This document shows positions 4,312 through 47,875 of a DNA stretch of 64,000 nt, piece after piece. A program made the translations under genes and the position numbers. Position 1 is the first letter of the stretch, and every line of letters begins with the position of its first letter. The stretch is from Streptomyces caelestis (GTDB lineage Bacteria > Actinomycetota > Actinomycetes > Streptomycetales > Streptomycetaceae): positions 62,001-126,000 of the forward strand of contig NZ_LGCN01000002.1 in the NCBI RefSeq assembly GCF_001279005.1. The letters are read 5' to 3'. Under the pieces are notes generated by a model. The model was not told the DNA's origin. It saw only the letters and a program-made list of their open reading frames with translations, and made no database searches.

Positions 4312-5112
4312 TCAGTCCGTCGGCCGGCGGATCAGCCCCCGTGCCCGCCGGGTCCGGCGCACCACCGCGTACCCCTTGGTCAGCGCGCGGTCCCGGGCGA
4401 AGGCGCGCGCGACGCCCCGCCCCTCCACCAGCCGTTCGAACGCGGCGGTGTCCGTCGACCGTCGCACCGTCACGCGCCGCAGGGCGTACGGGCCCTGGGC
4501 GCGGCGGGCGAGACCGTTGCCGACGGCGAGCGCCTGGGCGTACCCCGTCTCGCGCACCGCCCGGCGCACCCGGCGGCTGGAGTAGCCGTAGGGATACGCG
4601 AACGAGGCGGGCACGCGGCCCAGCTGGTCCGAGACGATCTCCTTGCACAGGATCAGCTCGGAGCGCAGCCGGCGGTCGTCGAGCCGGTCGAGCTGCGGGT
4701 GGCTGTGGCTGTGCCCGCCGATCTCGACGCCGGCGCCGGCCAGTTCGCGCACCTGGTCCCAGCCGAGCATGGTGTCCGGGCCGCCGCCGGTGTCGTACGG
4801 GCCCCGCAGCCAGCCGGTGGAGACGAACAGGGTGGCCGGGAAGCCGTGTTCGGCGAGCACGGGCAGCGCGTGCCGGTGCACGCCCTCGTACCCGTCGTCG
4901 AACGTCACGAGGACCGGCCGGGCGGGCAGCGGGCGGCCCGAACGCCAGCGCGCGGCCAGTTCGGCCGTGGTGACGGGGGTGAGGCCCCGGTCCGCGAGCA
5001 CCGCCATCTGCTCGGCGAACGCCCCCGGGGACACGGACAGGGCGCGGGTCGCCTCGCCGGGATCGTCCGCGACCGCGTGGTACATGAGGATCGGCACGCG
5101 TACGTCAGTCAC
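4312..5112 (-). CDS. Polysaccharide deacetylase (NodB, carbohydrate esterase 4)
   Basis: A 266-residue NodB-fold deacetylase. Motif 1 is LVTFDDGYEG (catalytic Asp and metal-ligand Asp) and motif 2 is GGHSHSHPQL (metal His pair). Later blocks FAYPYGYSSRRVRRAVRETGY match the family. These enzymes remove N-acetyl groups from cell-wall or exported glycans. No signal peptide is visible, so it may act on a cytoplasmic or lipid-linked glycan. Its GTG start overlaps the end of the upstream glycosyltransferase by eight bases, making it the third gene of a GT2-GT2-deacetylase operon. Confidence 0.88.
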   Translation of the reverse strand: MTDVRVPILMYHAVADDPGEATRALSVSPGAFAEQMAVLADRGLTPVTTAELAARWRSGRPLPARPVLVTFDDGYEGVHRHALPVLAEHGFPATLFVSTGWLRGPYDTGGGPDTMLGWDQVRELAGAGVEIGGHSHSHPQLDRLDDRRLRSELILCKEIVSDQLGRVPASFAYPYGYSSRRVRRAVRETGYAQALAVGNGLARRAQGPYALRRVTVRRSTDTAAFERLVEGRGVARAFARDRALTKGYAVVRRTRRARGLIRRPTD

Positions 5113-41078: not shown

Positions 41079-42329
41079 TCAGCGGTAGAGCAGGTACCCC
41101 CGCCGCGTCCTCCGGAACCCCGCCAGCTCCTCCTGCCAGCCGGCCACCACCTCGTCCGTGTCCGCGCCCGCGTCGATCATGGTGCGTACGCGCGTGGAGC
41201 CGGTGAGCTTGTCGATCCAGTCGTCCGCACGCCAGGCGAAACCGCTCCACGACCGCTTGGCGGTGATCAGCAGTCCGATCCCCGTCCGCACCGGATCGAA
41301 CGCCTCCCGGTCGTGCACGTGCACCTGGACGCCCCCGACGGTCCTCCCCTGGAACTTGGAGAACGTCGGCGTGAAGTACGCCTCCCGGAAGCGGACGCCC
41401 TCCAGCCCCAGCGCGTTCGCCCCGTCCGCCCAGCGCCCGTCGATCCCCTCCGCACCCAGCAGCTCGAACGGCCGGGTGGTCCCGCGCCCCTCCGACAGGT
41501 TCGTCCCCTCGAACAGGCACGTCCCCGAGTACACCAGCGCCGTCTCCGGCGTCGGCATGTTCGGGCTCGGCGGCACCCACGGCAGCCCGGAGGCGTCGTA
41601 GAAGTCCGACCGCTTCCAGCCCGACATGGTCACGGTCTCCAGCGGCGCCGGCGTCGTCAGGAACTCCCCGTTGAACAGCAGGGCCAGCTCCGCCACCGTC
41701 ATCCCGTGCGCCTGGGAGATCGGCTGCCGCCCGACGAACGTCGCGAACTCCTCGTGCAGCACCGGGCCCAGCGCGGCCCGCCCGGTCACCGGGTTCGGCC
41801 GGTCGAGGACGACGAACCGCCTGCCCGCGAGCGCGGCCGCCTCCATGCAGTCGAACAGCGTCCAGATGTACGTGTAGAACCGCGCGCCGACGTCCTGGAC
41901 GTCGAAGACGACCGTGTCCACGCCGGACGCCGCGAAGACGTCGGCGAGCGCCTGACCGCTCTTCAGGTACGTGTCGTAGACGGGCAGGCCGGTCGCCGGG
42001 TCGTCGTGGCGGCCCTCCGCGCCGCCCGCCTGGGCGGTGCCCCGGAAGCCGTGCTCGGGTCCGAAGACGGCGGTCAGGTCCACCCGGTCGTCGGCGTGCA
42101 TCACGTCGACGATGTGCCGTGCGTCCCGGGTGACGCCCGTCGGGTTGGTGACCACGCCCACACGCCGGCCGTCGAGCAGGGCGTAGCCGTCCGCGGCGAG
42201 CCGTTCGAACCCGGTGCGCAGCCGTCGGCCGCCTCCGTGCGCCGGTCCCGAAGCGGCGGCGGCCGGTGCGGCGGAGGCCGCGGCCGCGGCCGCGGTGGTG
42301 GCGAGCAGGCTCCGTCTGGACAGCTTCAT
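41079..42329 (-). CDS. Secreted DUF1343 exo-beta-N-acetylmuramidase (NamZ-like)
   Basis: A 416-residue exported protein. The N-terminus MKLSRRSLLATTAAAAAA is a twin-arginine-like signal. The DUF1343/GH171 domain follows: RVGVVTNPTG, VFGPEHGFRG, FDVQDVGARFYTY, VLDRPNPVTG and the C-terminal SEGRGTTRPFELLGAEG. Characterised NamZ releases terminal MurNAc from peptidoglycan fragments, so cell-wall recycling or turnover outside the cytoplasm is likely. GGAGG precedes the ATG. It stands alone. Confidence 0.9.
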   Translation of the reverse strand: MKLSRRSLLATTAAAAAASAAPAAAASGPAHGGGRRLRTGFERLAADGYALLDGRRVGVVTNPTGVTRDARHIVDVMHADDRVDLTAVFGPEHGFRGTAQAGGAEGRHDDPATGLPVYDTYLKSGQALADVFAASGVDTVVFDVQDVGARFYTYIWTLFDCMEAAALAGRRFVVLDRPNPVTGRAALGPVLHEEFATFVGRQPISQAHGMTVAELALLFNGEFLTTPAPLETVTMSGWKRSDFYDASGLPWVPPSPNMPTPETALVYSGTCLFEGTNLSEGRGTTRPFELLGAEGIDGRWADGANALGLEGVRFREAYFTPTFSKFQGRTVGGVQVHVHDREAFDPVRTGIGLLITAKRSWSGFAWRADDWIDKLTGSTRVRTMIDAGADTDEVVAGWQEELAGFRRTRRGYLLYR

Positions 42330-42440: not shown

Positions 42441-42458
42441 ATACCGACCGGTTAGTCT
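42441..42458. promoter_or_regulatory. TetR operator before the SDR gene
   Basis: ATACCGACCGGT followed by TAGTCT forms an imperfect palindrome around ACC/GGT. The first 12 bases are identical to the reverse complement of 46806-46817, the site before the phosphotransferase. It lies 40 bases upstream of the SDR start. Confidence 0.6.
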
Positions 42459-42497
42459 GACGCCGGTAGCCGCTGGGAGCCGCGTCGAAGGAGACCG

Positions 42498-43271
42498 ATG
42501 GTGCAAGCCGGGCAGGGTGCGAAGGTGGTCGTCACGGGAGCCGGGGGCGGCATCGGGGCGGCGCTGGCCCGCCGCTTCGCCGACCGGGGGGCGCGGGTCG
42601 TCGTCAACGACCTGGACGCCGACCGCGCGAAGGCCGTCGCCGAGGAGATCGGCGGCCTGGCCGTTGCGGGCGACGCCTCCTCGATCGTCGCCGAGGCCCG
42701 TGACGCGCTCGGCGGCACGGTCGACGTGTACTGCGCCAACGCGGGCGTCGGCCGCGGCGGCGGGGAGCCGGGAGAGCCGCTCGACGAGCAGGGCTGGGCA
42801 CTCTCCTGGGACGTCAACGTCATGGCGCACGTCCGCGCGGCGCACGCGCTGCTCCCGGACTGGCTGGAGCGCGGCAGCGGACGCTTCGTCTCCACCGTCT
42901 CCGCCGCCGGACTGCTCACCATGATCGGCACCGCCCCCTACAGCGTCACCAAGCACGGCGCCTACGCCTTCGCCGAGTGGCTGTCGCTGACGTACCGCCA
43001 CCGCGGGGTGAAGGTCCACGCGATCTGCCCGCAGGGCGTGCGCACCGACATGCTCGACGCCAGCGGCAGCGCGGGCGAGCTGGTCCTCAAGCCGACCGCG
43101 ATCGAACCGGAGGACGTGGCCGACGCCCTCTTCCGCGGCATCGAGGAGGACCGCTTCCTGATCCTCCCGCACCCGGAGGTCGCCGAGTACTACCGGGCCC
43201 GCGCCGCCGACCCCGACCGCTGGATCTCCGGCATGAACCGCATCCAGCAGCACTGGGAGGCCACCCGGTGA
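42498..43271 (+). CDS. Short-chain dehydrogenase/reductase
   Basis: A 257-residue SDR. The NAD(P) loop is VTGAGGGIGAALA near 12-24, NAG motif CANAGVG, catalytic Ser in STVSAAG, and YSVTKHG for Tyr-Lys. It probably oxidises or reduces a hydroxy/keto acyl-CoA in the same pathway as the next genes. Its TGA overlaps the GTG of the degraded acyl-CoA ligase (GTGA), showing they were once one operon. Confidence 0.9.
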   Translation: MVQAGQGAKVVVTGAGGGIGAALARRFADRGARVVVNDLDADRAKAVAEEIGGLAVAGDASSIVAEARDALGGTVDVYCANAGVGRGGGEPGEPLDEQGWALSWDVNVMAHVRAAHALLPDWLERGSGRFVSTVSAAGLLTMIGTAPYSVTKHGAYAFAEWLSLTYRHRGVKVHAICPQGVRTDMLDASGSAGELVLKPTAIEPEDVADALFRGIEEDRFLILPHPEVAEYYRARAADPDRWISGMNRIQQHWEATR

Positions 43272-43838
43272 CCGCCTCCGGCCACGCCGAACCCGGGCCG
43301 GCCCTCCTCACCGACGTCCGGCGCGCCACCGTGGAGCTTGCCGGCTCCCTGGTGCACGCCCCGCGCCGCGCGGTGTCCGAGACCCCCGACCGCGACTTCC
43401 CCGCCCACTTCGCCGGCCGCCCGGCCCACCGCGAGGCCGACGAACTCGGCGGGACGGACCCGAGGGCCGGCTGTGCGCCGTCGGCCGCGAGAAGGACATG
43501 ACCAGCGCGTTCGCCGGGGCCCGGGGGTGTCCCCCGGAGAACGCGGCAAGGCGGGACCGCGCGAGGCCGAGGACGTGCTCCACACGCGCCCGGCGGTGCG
43601 CGAGGCGGCCGTCGTGGGCGCGCCCGGCGGACACCGCGGGGAGACCGTCAAGGCCTTCGTCGGCCCGCGCCCCGGCGCCGGGACGGACCCGGCCTCGCTC
43701 GCCGCGTACGGCAAGGAGAGACTGGCCGCCTGCACGTGGCCGTGCCAGGCGGAGATCCTGCCGGAGCCGCCGAGGACGGCCAGTGGGAGGATCCTCCGGC
43801 GGGAACCGCGTTCCCCGGCCCACGAGAACGAGCAGTGA
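43268..43838 (+). pseudogene. Degraded acyl-CoA synthetase (AMP-binding ligase)
   Basis: Remains of an AMP-dependent acyl-CoA ligase, about 190 codons compared with about 500-550 in intact enzymes. The N-terminal piece (43268 on) breaks after roughly 78 codons. The motif LCAVGREKDM, which corresponds to the VGRxKDMI hinge motif, is in another frame. A third frame holds the C-terminal domain: EDVLHTRPAVREAAVVGAP, GGHRGETVKAFV and PRTASGRILRRE (normally LPKTxSGKILRRE). At least two frameshifts and a large internal deletion have removed the adenylate-forming core. It cannot make active enzyme. Confidence 0.85.
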
Positions 43839-43851
43839 CAAGGAAAGGCGG

Positions 43852-44454
43852 GTGGCGGCAGTGCCCAGGACGATGGACGGTGACGGAGCTCCTGTACCGC
43901 AGCGGCTCCTGGCCGCCGCCACCCGGCTCTTCGCCGAGCGCGGCTACGACCGCACCTCGGTACAGGAGATCGTCGAGGCGGCCGGCGTCACCAAGGGGGC
44001 GCTCTACCACTACTTCGGCTCCAAGGACGACCTGCTGCACGAGGTGTACGCGCGCGTGCTGCGCCTCCAGCAGGAACGCCTGGACCGCTTCGCGGACGCC
44101 GACGAGCCGGTCGAGAAGCGGCTGCGCGGTGCGGCGGCCGACGTCGTCGTCACCACGATCGAGAACCTCGACGACGCGTCGATCTTCTTCCGGTCCATGC
44201 ACCACCTCGGCCCGGAGAAGAACAAGCAGGTGCGCGCGGAGCGCCGCCGCTACCACGAACGCTTCCGCGCGCTGATCGAGGAGGGCCAGCGGGAGGGCGT
44301 CTTCTCGACGGCGACCCCGGCCGACCTGGTGGTCGACTACCACTTCGGCTCCGTGCACCACCTGTCGACCTGGTACCGCCCCGAGGGCCCGCTCAGCCCG
44401 CAGGAGGTCGCCGACCACCTGGCGGACCTGCTGCTGCGGGCCCTGCGCCCCTGA
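43852..44454 (+). CDS. TetR-family regulator of the acyl-CoA module
   Basis: A 200-residue regulator with HTH at about 17-62 (RLLAAATRLFAERGYDRTSV then QEIVEAAGVTKGALYHYFGSK). The C-terminal domain resembles AcrR-type repressors that bind acyl-CoAs. It follows the ligase remnant by 13 bases. The start GTG 43852 has GGAAAGG at short distance; GTG 43861 and ATG 43873 are alternatives. It is the best candidate to bind the ACCGACCGGT sites at 42441 and 46800. Confidence 0.88.
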   Translation: MAAVPRTMDGDGAPVPQRLLAAATRLFAERGYDRTSVQEIVEAAGVTKGALYHYFGSKDDLLHEVYARVLRLQQERLDRFADADEPVEKRLRGAAADVVVTTIENLDDASIFFRSMHHLGPEKNKQVRAERRRYHERFRALIEEGQREGVFSTATPADLVVDYHFGSVHHLSTWYRPEGPLSPQEVADHLADLLLRALRP

Positions 44455-44471
44455 GCCGGCCCGTCCCCCCA

Positions 44472-44509
44472 CGGCCCGTGGCCCGTCGGCGCCGGCGGGC
44501 CACGGGCCG
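44472..44509. terminator. Bidirectional terminator between tetR and acyl-CoA dehydrogenase
   Basis: CGGCCCGTGGCCCG (44472-44485) pairs perfectly with CGGGCCACGGGCCG (44496-44509) around a ten-base GC-rich loop, between two convergent stops (44454 and 44518). Confidence 0.75.
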
Positions 44510-44517
44510 CTGCGGGC

Positions 44518-45732
44518 TCACAGGTACTTCTTCAGCTCCCGGCGCGCCAGCGACCGCTGGTGCACCTCGTCCGGGCCGTCGGCGATCATCAGCGTGCGGG
44601 CGCCGGCGTACAGCTCGGCCAGCGGGAAGTCCTGGCTGACCCCGCCCGCGCCGTACAGCTGGATCGCGCGGTCGAGGATGGAGACGACCGTGCGCGGGGT
44701 GGCGATCTTGATGGCCTGGATCTCCGTGTGGGCGCCCCGGTTGCCGACGGTGTCCATCATCCAGGCCGTCTTCAGCACCAGCAGCCGCAGCTGCTCGACC
44801 GCCACGCGCGCGTCGGCGATCCAGTTCTGCACCACGCCCTGCTGCGCCAGCGCCTTGCCGAAGGCGTCACGCGACACCGCCCGCCGGCACATCAGCTCGA
44901 CGGCCCGCTCGGCCATGCCGATCAGCCGCATGCAGTGGTGGATCCGGCCCGGACCGAGCCGGGCCTGCGCGATGGCGAAACCGCCGCCCTCCTCGCCGAT
45001 CAGGTTCGACACCGGCACGCGCGCGTGGTCGAAGACCACCTCGGCGTGCCCGCCGTGGTAGTGGTCCTCGTAGCCGAACACCTGCATGGCGCGCTCGATC
45101 GTGACGCCCGGGGTGTCGCGCGGGACCAGCACCATGGACTGCTGACGGCGGATGTCCGCCCCGTCCGGGTCGGTCTTGCCCATCACGATGAAGACGGCGC
45201 AGTCCGGGTGCATCGCCCCGGAGATGTACCACTTGCGGCCGGTGATGACGTACTCGTCGCCGTCCCGCTCGATGCGGGTGGTGATGTTGGTGGCGTCGGA
45301 GGAGGCCACCTCCGGCTCGGTCATCGCGAACGCCGAGCGGATCTCACCGGCCAGCAGCGGCTGGAGCCACTGCTTCTTCTGCGCCTCGTCGCCGAACTGC
45401 GCCAGCACCTCCATGTTCCCGGTGTCGGGCGCCGCGCAGTTGGTGACGGTCGGCGCGATCTGCGGGGACCGGCCCATGATCTCGGCGAGCGGCGCGTACT
45501 GGAGGTTCGTCAGACCGGCGCCGTACTCGGAGTCGGGCAGGAACAGGTTCCACAGCCCCTGCCGGCGGGCCTCGGCCTTCAGCTCCTCCACCACGGGGAC
45601 GTTCCGCCACGGCGAGTCCAACCCGGCACGCTGCTCGTGGGCGACCGCTTCGGCCGGGTAAACGTACTCGTCCATGAAGGCGAGCAGCTTGGCGCGCAGC
45701 TCCTCGGTGCGCGCGTCGAACGCGAAGTCCAT
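44518..45732 (-). CDS. Acyl-CoA dehydrogenase, ACAD10/11-like
   Basis: A 404-residue acyl-CoA dehydrogenase. The flavin region FAMTEPEVASSDATNI and the helix REELAARRL-like segments are typical of the ACAD10/11 class. In place of the usual catalytic YEGTxQI the C-terminal block is MIADGPDEVHQRSLARRELK, so the base position holds Asp instead of Glu. It lies six bases downstream of the phosphotransferase on the same strand, the two activities that are fused in mammalian ACAD10/11. It probably handles a 4-hydroxyacyl-CoA-derived intermediate. Confidence 0.92.
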   Translation of the reverse strand: MDFAFDARTEELRAKLLAFMDEYVYPAEAVAHEQRAGLDSPWRNVPVVEELKAEARRQGLWNLFLPDSEYGAGLTNLQYAPLAEIMGRSPQIAPTVTNCAAPDTGNMEVLAQFGDEAQKKQWLQPLLAGEIRSAFAMTEPEVASSDATNITTRIERDGDEYVITGRKWYISGAMHPDCAVFIVMGKTDPDGADIRRQQSMVLVPRDTPGVTIERAMQVFGYEDHYHGGHAEVVFDHARVPVSNLIGEEGGGFAIAQARLGPGRIHHCMRLIGMAERAVELMCRRAVSRDAFGKALAQQGVVQNWIADARVAVEQLRLLVLKTAWMMDTVGNRGAHTEIQAIKIATPRTVVSILDRAIQLYGAGGVSQDFPLAELYAGARTLMIADGPDEVHQRSLARRELKKYL

Positions 45733-45738
45733 GGTTCG

Positions 45739-46761
45739 TCAGCCTTCCTGAAGGGTGGTCAGACCGTGCCGGATGAAGACCGGGACCAGATCGCCGATGC
45801 GGTCGAAGCCGCGGCCCACCGTCCGGCCCAGCGTGTAGCGGTAGTGGATGCCCTCCAGGATCACGGCGAGCTTGAACCAGGCGAACGCCGTGTACCAGGA
45901 CACCGCGGAGACGTCGCGCCCCGACCGCGCGGCGTACCGCTCGATCAGCTCGGCGGGCGTGGGGTGCCCGGGCGCCTCGGCGGTCGTGGAGACGGGGGAG
46001 TCCGGCGTGCCCAGCGGCATGCTGTACATCACCAGCAGCCCCAGGTCCGTCAGCGGATCGCCGAGCGTGGACATCTCCCAGTCGAGGACGGCCTTGATCG
46101 CGTCGTCCTCCCCGATCAGCACGTTGTCGAGGCGGTAGTCGCCGTGCACCACGGCGGGCGCGGGGGAGACGGGCAGTTCGCGCCCGAGTGCCGCCTGCAG
46201 CTCGTCGATGCCGGCCAGCTCCCGGTTGCGGGAGGCGTCCAGCTGCTTGCCCCAGCGCCGCAGCTGCCGGTCCAGGAACCCCTCGGGCCGGCCGAAGTCG
46301 GCGAGACCCACCTCGCCGGGCTCCACCGCGTGCAGCTCGACCAGCGTGTCCACCAGGTTCAGCACCGCGTCCCGGGTGCGCCCGGCGCCGAGCGGGGCGA
46401 GCTGGCCGGCCGTCCGGTACGGGGTGCCCTCGACGAAGTCCATGACGTAGAACGGCGCCCCGAGCACCTCCTCGTCCTCGCACAGCAGTACGGTGCGCGG
46501 CACCGGCACGGCGGTCGGGTGCAGCGCGCTGATCACCCGGTGCTCGCGCTTCATGTCGTGCGCGGTGGCCAGGACGTGGCCGAGCGGGGGACGCCGTACG
46601 ACCCACCGGGAGCTGTCGTCGGAGACCGCGTACGTGAGGTTCGACCTGCCGCCCTCGATCAGCCGGCCGGTGAGCGTGCCGTTCACCAGGCCGGGCCGCT
46701 CCCGTTCGAGCAGGCCGCGCAGCCGGTCGAGATCGAGTCCGGGCGGGTGGTCGGTGCTCAT
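45739..46761 (-). CDS. APH-fold phosphotransferase, LvaA/ACAD10-11 kinase-like
   Basis: A 340-residue kinase of the aminoglycoside-phosphotransferase fold. The catalytic loop is VHGDYRLDNVLIGEDD (Asp) and the metal DWE motif is VLDWEMSTLGDPLTDLG. The N-lobe Gly strand is GRLIEGGRSNLTYAVSDD. In this operon position with an acyl-CoA dehydrogenase, the known relatives phosphorylate the 4-hydroxyl of acyl-CoAs (LvaA in Pseudomonas, ACAD10/11 kinase domain). It has no relation to antibiotic resistance here. GTG-type leader TAGGAGCGACG precedes the ATG at 46761. Confidence 0.9.
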   Translation of the reverse strand: MSTDHPPGLDLDRLRGLLERERPGLVNGTLTGRLIEGGRSNLTYAVSDDSSRWVVRRPPLGHVLATAHDMKREHRVISALHPTAVPVPRTVLLCEDEEVLGAPFYVMDFVEGTPYRTAGQLAPLGAGRTRDAVLNLVDTLVELHAVEPGEVGLADFGRPEGFLDRQLRRWGKQLDASRNRELAGIDELQAALGRELPVSPAPAVVHGDYRLDNVLIGEDDAIKAVLDWEMSTLGDPLTDLGLLVMYSMPLGTPDSPVSTTAEAPGHPTPAELIERYAARSGRDVSAVSWYTAFAWFKLAVILEGIHYRYTLGRTVGRGFDRIGDLVPVFIRHGLTTLQEG

Positions 46762-46799
46762 CGTCGCTCCTACGGGCAGGAAACAGTACCCGCCTTATG

Positions 46800-46817
46800 A
46801 TGCCGACCGGTCGGTAT
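46800..46817. promoter_or_regulatory. TetR operator between kinase gene and quinone oxidoreductase
   Basis: ATGCCGACCGGTCGGTAT has a perfect 12-base centre, CCGACCGGTCGG, with one mismatch outside. It lies 39 bases upstream of the kinase ATG (minus strand) and 129 before the oxidoreductase. It shares ATACCGACCGGT with the site before the SDR gene. Confidence 0.65.
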
Positions 46818-46945: not shown

Positions 46946-47875
46946 ATGAAGGCGATCAGCTACGCACGGTACGGCGGCCCCGAAGTACTCGGCCTCGGGG
47001 AGGTCGACGACCCCAGGGTCGGCCCCGACTCGGTCCTGGTGAAGGTGCGGGCGGCGGCCGTCAACCCGGTCGACTGGAAGTGCCGGGAGGGTTATCTCGA
47101 CCCGGTCCTCCAGCCGGTGTTCCCCGTCGTCCCCGGCTGGGACGTCTCGGGCGTGGTCGTCCGGCCGGGCCCCGCCGCACCGGAGTTCGCCGTCGGCGAC
47201 GAGGTCATCGGCTACGTGCGCCAGGACGTCCTCTCGCACGGCACCTTCGCCGAGTACGTGGCCGCCCCGGTGCGCGCCCTCGCGCGCAAGCCGCGCGCCC
47301 TGTCCTTCGAGGAGGCGGCCGGCCTCCCGCTCGCGGGGCTCACCGCGTACCAGGTGCTGCACCGCGTCCTCGAGGTCAAGCGGGGCGAGACCGTCCTGGT
47401 GCACGCCGCGGCCGGCGGCGTCGGATCCATCGCCGTCCAGCTCGCCGCCCACCTCGGCGCCCGGGTCATCGGCACGGCGAGCGAGCGCAACCACGACTTC
47501 GTGCGCGGGCTGGGCGGGGAGCCGGTGAGCTACGGCGAGGGCCTGGCCGAACGGGTCCGGGGGCTGGCGCCCGAGGGCGTGGACGCGGTGTTCGACACGG
47601 TGGGCGGCGACGCCCTCAGGGCCTCCGCGAACCTGCTGGCCCCCGAGGGCCGCCTGGCCTCGATCACCGACCCCGAGGTGGTGGACTACGGCGGCCGCTA
47701 CTGGTTCGTCCGCCCCGACCCCCAGGACCTCCAGCACCTCTCCGACCTGGCGGACCAGGGCACGGTCACCGTCCACGTCTCGGAAACCCTCCCCCTGGAG
47801 CGAGCGGCGGACGCCCACCGCCTGAGCCAGGAGGGGCGTACCCGCGGCAAGATCGTGGTGACGGTGAACGAATAG
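46946..47875 (+). CDS. NADPH quinone oxidoreductase-like MDR protein
   Basis: A 309-residue zinc-free medium-chain reductase. The N-terminal GroES-like part contains VNPVDWKCREGYLDP and PGWDVSGVV. The Rossmann motif is VHAAAGGVGSIAVQLA. The C-terminal part VHVSETLPLERAADAHRL is typical of the quinone oxidoreductase/crotonyl reductase class. GGAGGG lies upstream of the ATG. It is divergent from the kinase gene and near the same operator, so it may belong to the same regulon. Confidence 0.9.
   Translation: MKAISYARYGGPEVLGLGEVDDPRVGPDSVLVKVRAAAVNPVDWKCREGYLDPVLQPVFPVVPGWDVSGVVVRPGPAAPEFAVGDEVIGYVRQDVLSHGTFAEYVAAPVRALARKPRALSFEEAAGLPLAGLTAYQVLHRVLEVKRGETVLVHAAAGGVGSIAVQLAAHLGARVIGTASERNHDFVRGLGGEPVSYGEGLAERVRGLAPEGVDAVFDTVGGDALRASANLLAPEGRLASITDPEVVDYGGRYWFVRPDPQDLQHLSDLADQGTVTVHVSETLPLERAADAHRLSQEGRTRGKIVVTVNE

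Follow-up and report, generated by a model that had tools for sequence, protein, structure and literature searches.

The 64-kb window analysed here, a stretch of contig NZ_LGCN01000002.1 of Streptomyces caelestis, contains a cluster of genes in which an APH-fold kinase and an enzyme of the acyl-CoA dehydrogenase (ACAD) fold are encoded side by side. The two genes lie on the minus strand, separated by six bases (45733-45738), and are accompanied on the plus strand by genes for a short-chain dehydrogenase/reductase (SDR) and a TetR-family regulator, with the remnant of an acyl-CoA ligase gene between them. A sequence resembling an operator precedes each of the two groups (Table 1). A first-pass annotation of this DNA had proposed that the cluster phosphorylates 4-hydroxyacyl-CoA compounds; its open reading frames are present as it gave them, as is the six-base spacing. 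Our analysis indicates that this is probably a Streptomyces module for the breakdown of 4-hydroxyacyl-CoA.

Table 1. Genes and operator sites of the cluster and its flank, with positions in the window
Feature	Position	Strand	Remarks
APH-fold kinase, candidate 4-hydroxyacyl-CoA kinase	45739-46761	-	340 aa; counterpart of LvaA and of the ACAD10/11 kinase domain; Pfam APH
ACAD10/11-LvaC type enzyme, acyl-CoA dehydrogenase fold	44518-45732	-	404 aa; predicted to eliminate phosphate; Pfam ACAD N-terminal, middle and C-terminal domains
SDR oxidoreductase, candidate 4-oxoacyl-CoA reductase (putative LvaD role)	42498-43271	+	PF00106 (adh_short), 122.5 bits; reading frame open
FadD-like acyl-CoA ligase remnant	43268-43838	+	two frames; ~400 central residues gone
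TetR-family regulator, candidate module repressor	43852-44454	+	200 aa; PF00440 (TetR_N), 81.6 bits; PF17932 (TetR_C_24), 108 bits; reading frame open
Operator upstream of the kinase-ACAD pair, ATGCCGACCGGTCGGTAT	46800-46817	.	kept in 39/40 loci
Operator upstream of SDR-ligase-TetR, ATACCGACCGGTTAGTCT	42441-42458	.	kept in 35/35 loci with upstream DNA to examine
MDR protein	46946-47875		best NCBIfam match PIG3 quinone oxidoreductase, 176 bits, cut-off 297

The kinase-ACAD pair

The likeness to ACAD10 and ACAD11 from which the first-pass annotation started is borne out by direct comparison. The kinase is 35.5% and the ACAD 53.9% identical to mouse ACAD11, and both carry the residues named as setting this kind of protein apart. 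The ACAD matches the ACAD11 structure 8v3u with E = 2.3e-134; once 4hr3 and the entries for ACAD11 are passed, the next ACAD of known structure is 1ukw, with E = 7.8e-40. Every residue of the ACAD10/11-LvaC signature (the upstream arginine, the HCMR motif and the catalytic aspartate) can be mapped, with R258, R263, H266-C267-M268-R269 and D385 aligning with R626, R631, HCMR 634-637 and D753 of ACAD11. In the kinase, D208 and N213 correspond to the catalytic D220 and N225 of ACAD11, and R165 to Arg176 of the CoA pocket. R86 of the ACAD paper has no kinase counterpart by number, and an arginine is present beside the alpha-C glutamate (R72-E73). A small tree groups the kinase with ACAD11 and the ACAD-paired bacterial kinases, 17 rows against two other APH proteins from the same genome, with support of 92/82; the ACAD-paired rows were grouped by ourselves, the outgroup comprised two of seven intended rows on long branches, and LvaA was not among the rows. 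ACAD11 is absent among the 50 VIA rows listed, which has no bearing against the fold, and no Pseudomonas name occurs among the best 120 matches of a second protein search. The source names of the kinase relatives include phosphotransferase, aminoglycoside phosphotransferase (APT) family kinase and even acyl-CoA dehydrogenase.

How widely is the pair distributed? It is near-universal in our Streptomyces sample, comprising 101 genomes assigned to the same genus in the genome search. At thresholds of E 1e-40 for the kinase query and 1e-100 for the ACAD query, the same 97 genomes match both proteins and the remaining four match neither. The genes are adjacent on the same strand, kinase first, in 96 of these 97; the gap between them, counted with the stop codon of the kinase, has a median of 10 bases and a range of 5-261. 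In G079, the one genome that departs from this, the only copies are diverged and lie ~7 kb apart, and in three of the 96 (G017, G041 and G043) the kinase match is partial or in pieces. We fetched 40 loci, the main copy from 39 genomes together with a diverged second copy (L078, from G098). The pair is adjacent in all 40, with the SDR gene present in 37 and the TetR gene in 38, and the signature is complete for kinase and ACAD alike in every one. When every locus examined is counted, 62 of 66 have the complete ACAD signature (the exceptions are L097, L108, L117 and L118), and 48 of the 49 loci that have a kinase show that of the kinase in full (the exception is L118).

Relatives of the kinase and the ACAD are found well beyond Streptomyces. 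In a phylum sample of 149 genomes, 54 encode the ACAD, 60 encode the kinase and 50 encode both (Fisher p 1e-24, uncorrected for kinship). Outside Streptomyces the kinase lies within 1 kb of the ACAD in only seven of the 46 genomes having both. Seventeen of 20 loci from other Actinomycetota (L099-L118) have no kinase near the ACAD10/11-type ACAD in the fetched stretch of at most 5 kb on each side, and most of the genomes concerned have a kinase elsewhere. Genes for kinase, ACAD and SDR are clustered in each of six plasmid loci (four proteobacterial, one from Streptomyces and one from Rhodococcus), chosen from the best 60 of 257 records. On the Streptomyces cathayae plasmid NZ_CP121683.1 the pair and an SDR gene lie between IS3 transposase genes. 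Plasmid pRHL2 of Rhodococcus jostii RHA1 has a kinase-TetR-SDR-ACAD-SDR cluster, whose ACAD (that of L097) reads HGMW instead of HCMR and perhaps carries out related chemistry.

The SDR, ligase and TetR genes and their operators

In clusters from outside Streptomyces, the two closest counterparts of the SDR share 26% and 41% identity with it, among sequences that did not include LvaD itself. The ligase gene is broken, as the first-pass annotation had recognized. Its two pieces lie in different frames and align with residues 9-71 and 471-564 of a relative's ligase. The C-terminal motif of the remnant reads GRILRR; the ligases of L039 and L040 have GKILRR, the lysine of which we take to be catalytic. 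The genome contains 13 other ligase matches, at most 40% identical. At the level of the genus the set of kinase, ACAD, SDR and ligase is complete. Among the 37 relatives with SDR and TetR genes in order, the ligase is uninterrupted in 32, defined as a single match of >480 residues, lying between the two genes, to the ligase of a relative. It is broken over three frames in one (L056), and there is no ligase match in four (L053, L059, L073 and L075). In G012 a rearrangement has split the gene, so that residues 2-329 lie with the SDR gene and operator (L119) and residues 373-560 with the TetR gene (L064), 1.8 Mb apart. Loss or breakage of the ligase thus looks recurrent. Where it is whole, as in L040, the ligase resembles long-chain-fatty-acid CoA ligases, and falls below the cut-off of each of the best 25 of 108 NCBIfam models. 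Pseudomonas putida without LvaE still grows on levulinate, according to excerpts of PMC6692424, so the pathway may survive without its dedicated ligase.

The two operator sites, which the first-pass annotation had seen as a common element before the SDR and kinase genes, are the sole matches in the whole window to ATACCGACCGGTCGGTAT at up to three mismatches, where 0.01 is expected. The site before the SDR gene has three mismatches and that before the kinase gene one, and none of 100 shuffled sequences contained two matches. Both are strongly conserved. In the relatives the kinase-side site nearly always reads ATGCCGAC[CT][AG]GTCGGTAT and is matched at 15 or more of 18 positions in 39 of 40 loci, the miss being the diverged copy L078. 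The SDR-side site is mostly ATACCGAC[CT]GGTTAGTCT, matched at 14 or more of 18 positions in all 35 loci; this count leaves out two loci cut before the site and three that lack the SDR gene. A search of 61 whole genomes with ATNCCGACYRGTYRGTMT returned 112 sites in 57 genomes, compared with two for the reversed control, and the kinase gene is no more than 15 kb away from 101 of the 112. The four genomes with no site in this search are three without the module (G035, G037 and G051) and one fragmentary assembly (G050). The SDR gene of G012 has kept its operator despite its displacement. Position and co-conservation point to the TetR protein as the putative owner of the module operators.

The module operator nearly equals ACCGACCGGTCGGTT, the operator of the TetR-type regulator PaaR, which is released by phenylacetyl-CoA according to excerpts of PMC9493321. 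Under relaxed matching the S. caelestis genome contains eight sites, comprising the two of the module, one before a gene for an oxidoreductase of the luciferase-like monooxygenase (LLM) class, one before an enoyl-CoA hydratase-like gene, and four with no clear target at a glance. The hydratase-like gene, read from its translation, begins ~50 bases after the weaker match (L091, ~5001-5013).

Eleven of the sites in the 61 genomes are distant from the kinase gene, and five of these (in G000, the S. caelestis genome itself, G009, G011, G013 and G027) precede one and the same LLM-class gene. Its product belongs to the TIGR03619 F420-dependent family (230 bits, cut-off 167), and the gene adjoins one whose translation resembles FO synthase. 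The loci are L089 (4998-5939, on G000:C176), L123, L124, L125 and L127. Of the remaining distant sites, two belong to SDR genes located on another contig or elsewhere in the genome (G012 and G024), one probably does so too (G008), and three are single occurrences (G024, G040 and G049). The site in G049 (L126, G049:C1:9441681) lies at the start of an AMP-binding ligase gene that is followed by a biotin carboxylase-like gene, and one in G024 (L122, G024:C26:30352) lies before an ADH_N_2 oxidoreductase gene.

We then scored the 200 bases upstream of the LLM gene with a weight matrix made from the module operators alone, in the best 30 of the 47 LLM-bearing genomes among the 61. An operator is present in 12 of the 30, scoring 8.9-31.3, seven of them at position -52; five of the 12 belong to the discovery set, which leaves seven new ones. 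Scores below 0 were obtained for the remaining 18, and none of 60 control stretches scores above -5.2. In 13 of the loci the LLM protein shares 82.9% identity or more with that of S. caelestis, and all 12 operator-bearing loci are among them; the LLM operator therefore seems to be an extension peculiar to one clade. This suggests that an F420H2-dependent step precedes the 4-hydroxy acid. The module may conceivably be wired to coenzyme F420 in part of the genus, where a reduction using F420H2 (its substrate being, for instance, a 4-oxo- or 4-hydroxy-2-enoyl compound) would feed the kinase-ACAD pair, but we regard this as a tentative proposal. The mammalian route from 4-hydroxynonenal provides a parallel. 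The LLM operator could also be owned by another TetR protein with a similar operator.

Beyond the kinase-side operator lies a further gene, counted in the module by the first-pass annotation as a reductase. The gene is there, and its product is an MDR protein of which the closest NCBIfam model is only a sub-threshold PIG3 match. Among the relatives' 40 loci, 20 have the MDR gene inside the 3 kb that was fetched, two of these cut by the edge, so we do not count it as a demonstrated member. On the other flank a gene for a NamZ-type exo-beta-N-acetylmuramidase (41079-42329) lies divergently beside the SDR gene, as it does in many of the 40 loci; no functional link with the module is seen.

A candidate route and its alternatives

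From their signatures and pairing we infer that the kinase and the ACAD would perform the two steps of ACAD10/11. Excerpts of PMC11342911 and PMC12440821 describe an ACAD10/11 kinase that phosphorylates 4-hydroxyacyl-CoA and not the free acid, and an ACAD domain that converts 4-phosphoacyl-CoA to 2-enoyl-CoA using FAD without an added electron acceptor. They also report that bacterial orthologues can substitute for either domain, both reactions being demonstrated. In the route we envisage, a 4-hydroxy acid, or a 4-oxo acid reduced by the SDR, would be converted to its CoA thioester by the FadD-like ligase; in this strain, which has no intact copy, a different ligase would need to take its place. 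With ATP, the kinase would then place phosphate on the 4-hydroxyl group of the 4-hydroxyacyl-CoA. The ACAD10/11-type enzyme, with FAD and no net oxidation, would eliminate the phosphate to give the 2-enoyl-CoA, which would pass into beta-oxidation. The TetR protein would bind the two operators to repress both transcription units, until released by an acyl-CoA of the pathway. The two central reactions are proposed by analogy with ACAD10/11 and LvaA/C. More weakly, the lva operon suggests that the SDR may act as 4-oxoacyl-CoA reductase and the ligase as activator, and we offer with similar caution the assignment of the operators to the TetR protein, an acyl-CoA as inducer, and the natural substrate.

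Might the kinase instead have some other hydroxylated lipid as its substrate, for instance a steroid side chain or a tertiary alcohol, or else an alcohol not bound to CoA, with the ACAD taking that phosphorylated product? This is unlikely in view of the wide gap between the scores of the kinase against 9o56 (224 bits), 3dxp (163) and ACAD11 (161) and those against 25-HSK (42) and Rv3168 (33). Moreover, the partner ACAD has the HCMR signature, tied to phosphate binding in excerpts of the ACAD11 paper, and the equivalent of Arg176 is kept in all 40 Streptomyces loci. That the ACAD is simply an acyl-CoA dehydrogenase of the ordinary kind, and the kinase an APH enzyme of resistance or maintenance with no relation to it, adjacent by chance, we consider extremely improbable. 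Pfam gives generic family names only and, among the models listed, no NCBIfam cut-off is reached for either protein, as such a reading would have it; against this stand the aspartate at the catalytic position and the HCMR motif in the ACAD, the adjacency in 96 of 97 genomes, and the fact that all four genomes without one protein are also without the other.

Opened lactones are 4-hydroxy acids, and the module might therefore degrade or recycle gamma-butyrolactone or butenolide signals, the TetR protein being a distant autoregulator receptor. The presence of the pair in 97 of 101 genomes of the genus is in keeping with this, as is the best NCBIfam match of the TetR protein, ScbR_bind_reg. However, that match, at 70 bits, is far under its cut-off of 150, and among solved structures the best relative 3vpr (92 bits) and KstR2 (61 bits) both outscore CprB (44 bits). 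The ArpA/CprB site and the AvaR1 motif, as given in excerpts of PMC4150764 and PMC5744401 respectively, fit the operator poorly, where the PaaR operator fits closely, and the occurrence of kinase and ACAD relatives far outside Streptomyces also tells against a signal of this kind. A resemblance of the operator to an ArpA half-site was also considered and set aside, the site printed in PMC4150764 being different. A gamma-butyrolactone receptor is unsupported by the TetR scores and operator fit, and we keep the lactone-signal alternative as very unlikely.

The occurrence of a probable 4-hydroxyacyl-CoA breakdown module in nearly every Streptomyces genome sampled suggests that members of the genus routinely consume 4-hydroxy acids, 4-oxo acids or gamma-lactones, or form them as by-products. 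Descriptions of the ACAD10/11 reaction date from 2024-2025, and proteins of this kind often carry the names of other functions. Excerpts of PMC6692424 attribute homologues of the lva genes to Alpha-, Beta- and Gammaproteobacteria. Among the matches listed, confined to Creative Commons-licensed papers, no title or abstract start describes the module in Streptomyces. The split-gene form makes the unusual FAD phospho-elimination accessible as a two-protein system and provides a TetR circuit whose inducer could be found by a binding assay.

Comparison with known systems

The pair is predicted to have the same two activities as mammalian ACAD10 and ACAD11 (8v3u, 8v3v), with which it shares the signature residues. 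In contrast to the mammalian fusions, it is encoded by two separate genes and has a conserved TetR-type operator upstream; ACAD10 also has a HAD domain, which the Streptomyces pair lacks.

Compared by description, the lva operon of Pseudomonas putida (LvaA, LvaB, LvaC, LvaD, LvaE and LvaR) has the same gene set of kinase, ACAD, SDR and ligase, and the reactions reported for it in excerpts of PMC6692424 and PMC9628823 would serve in the Streptomyces module. The regulator there is LvaR, whereas the Streptomyces cluster has a TetR gene, and the ligase is broken in the present strain. The cluster of P. citronellolis is reported, in excerpts of PMC6692424, to be without LvaB.

A similar row of ligase, SDR, ACAD and phosphotransferase genes occurs in Thermus thermophilus (TTHB017-012), where the TetR-family fatty-acid regulator FadR binds before TTHB017. 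In excerpts of PMC5597230 its effect on these genes is termed unclear, the fold changes being weak, and the FadR operator TTRNACYNRGTNYAA differs from that of the Streptomyces module. The operator instead finds its near-identical counterpart in the PaaR regulon of Burkholderia cenocepacia, whose regulator is also of the TetR type and has an acyl-CoA ligand; PaaR governs phenylacetate genes, whereas the Streptomyces sites precede what is probably a module for 4-hydroxyacyl-CoA breakdown.

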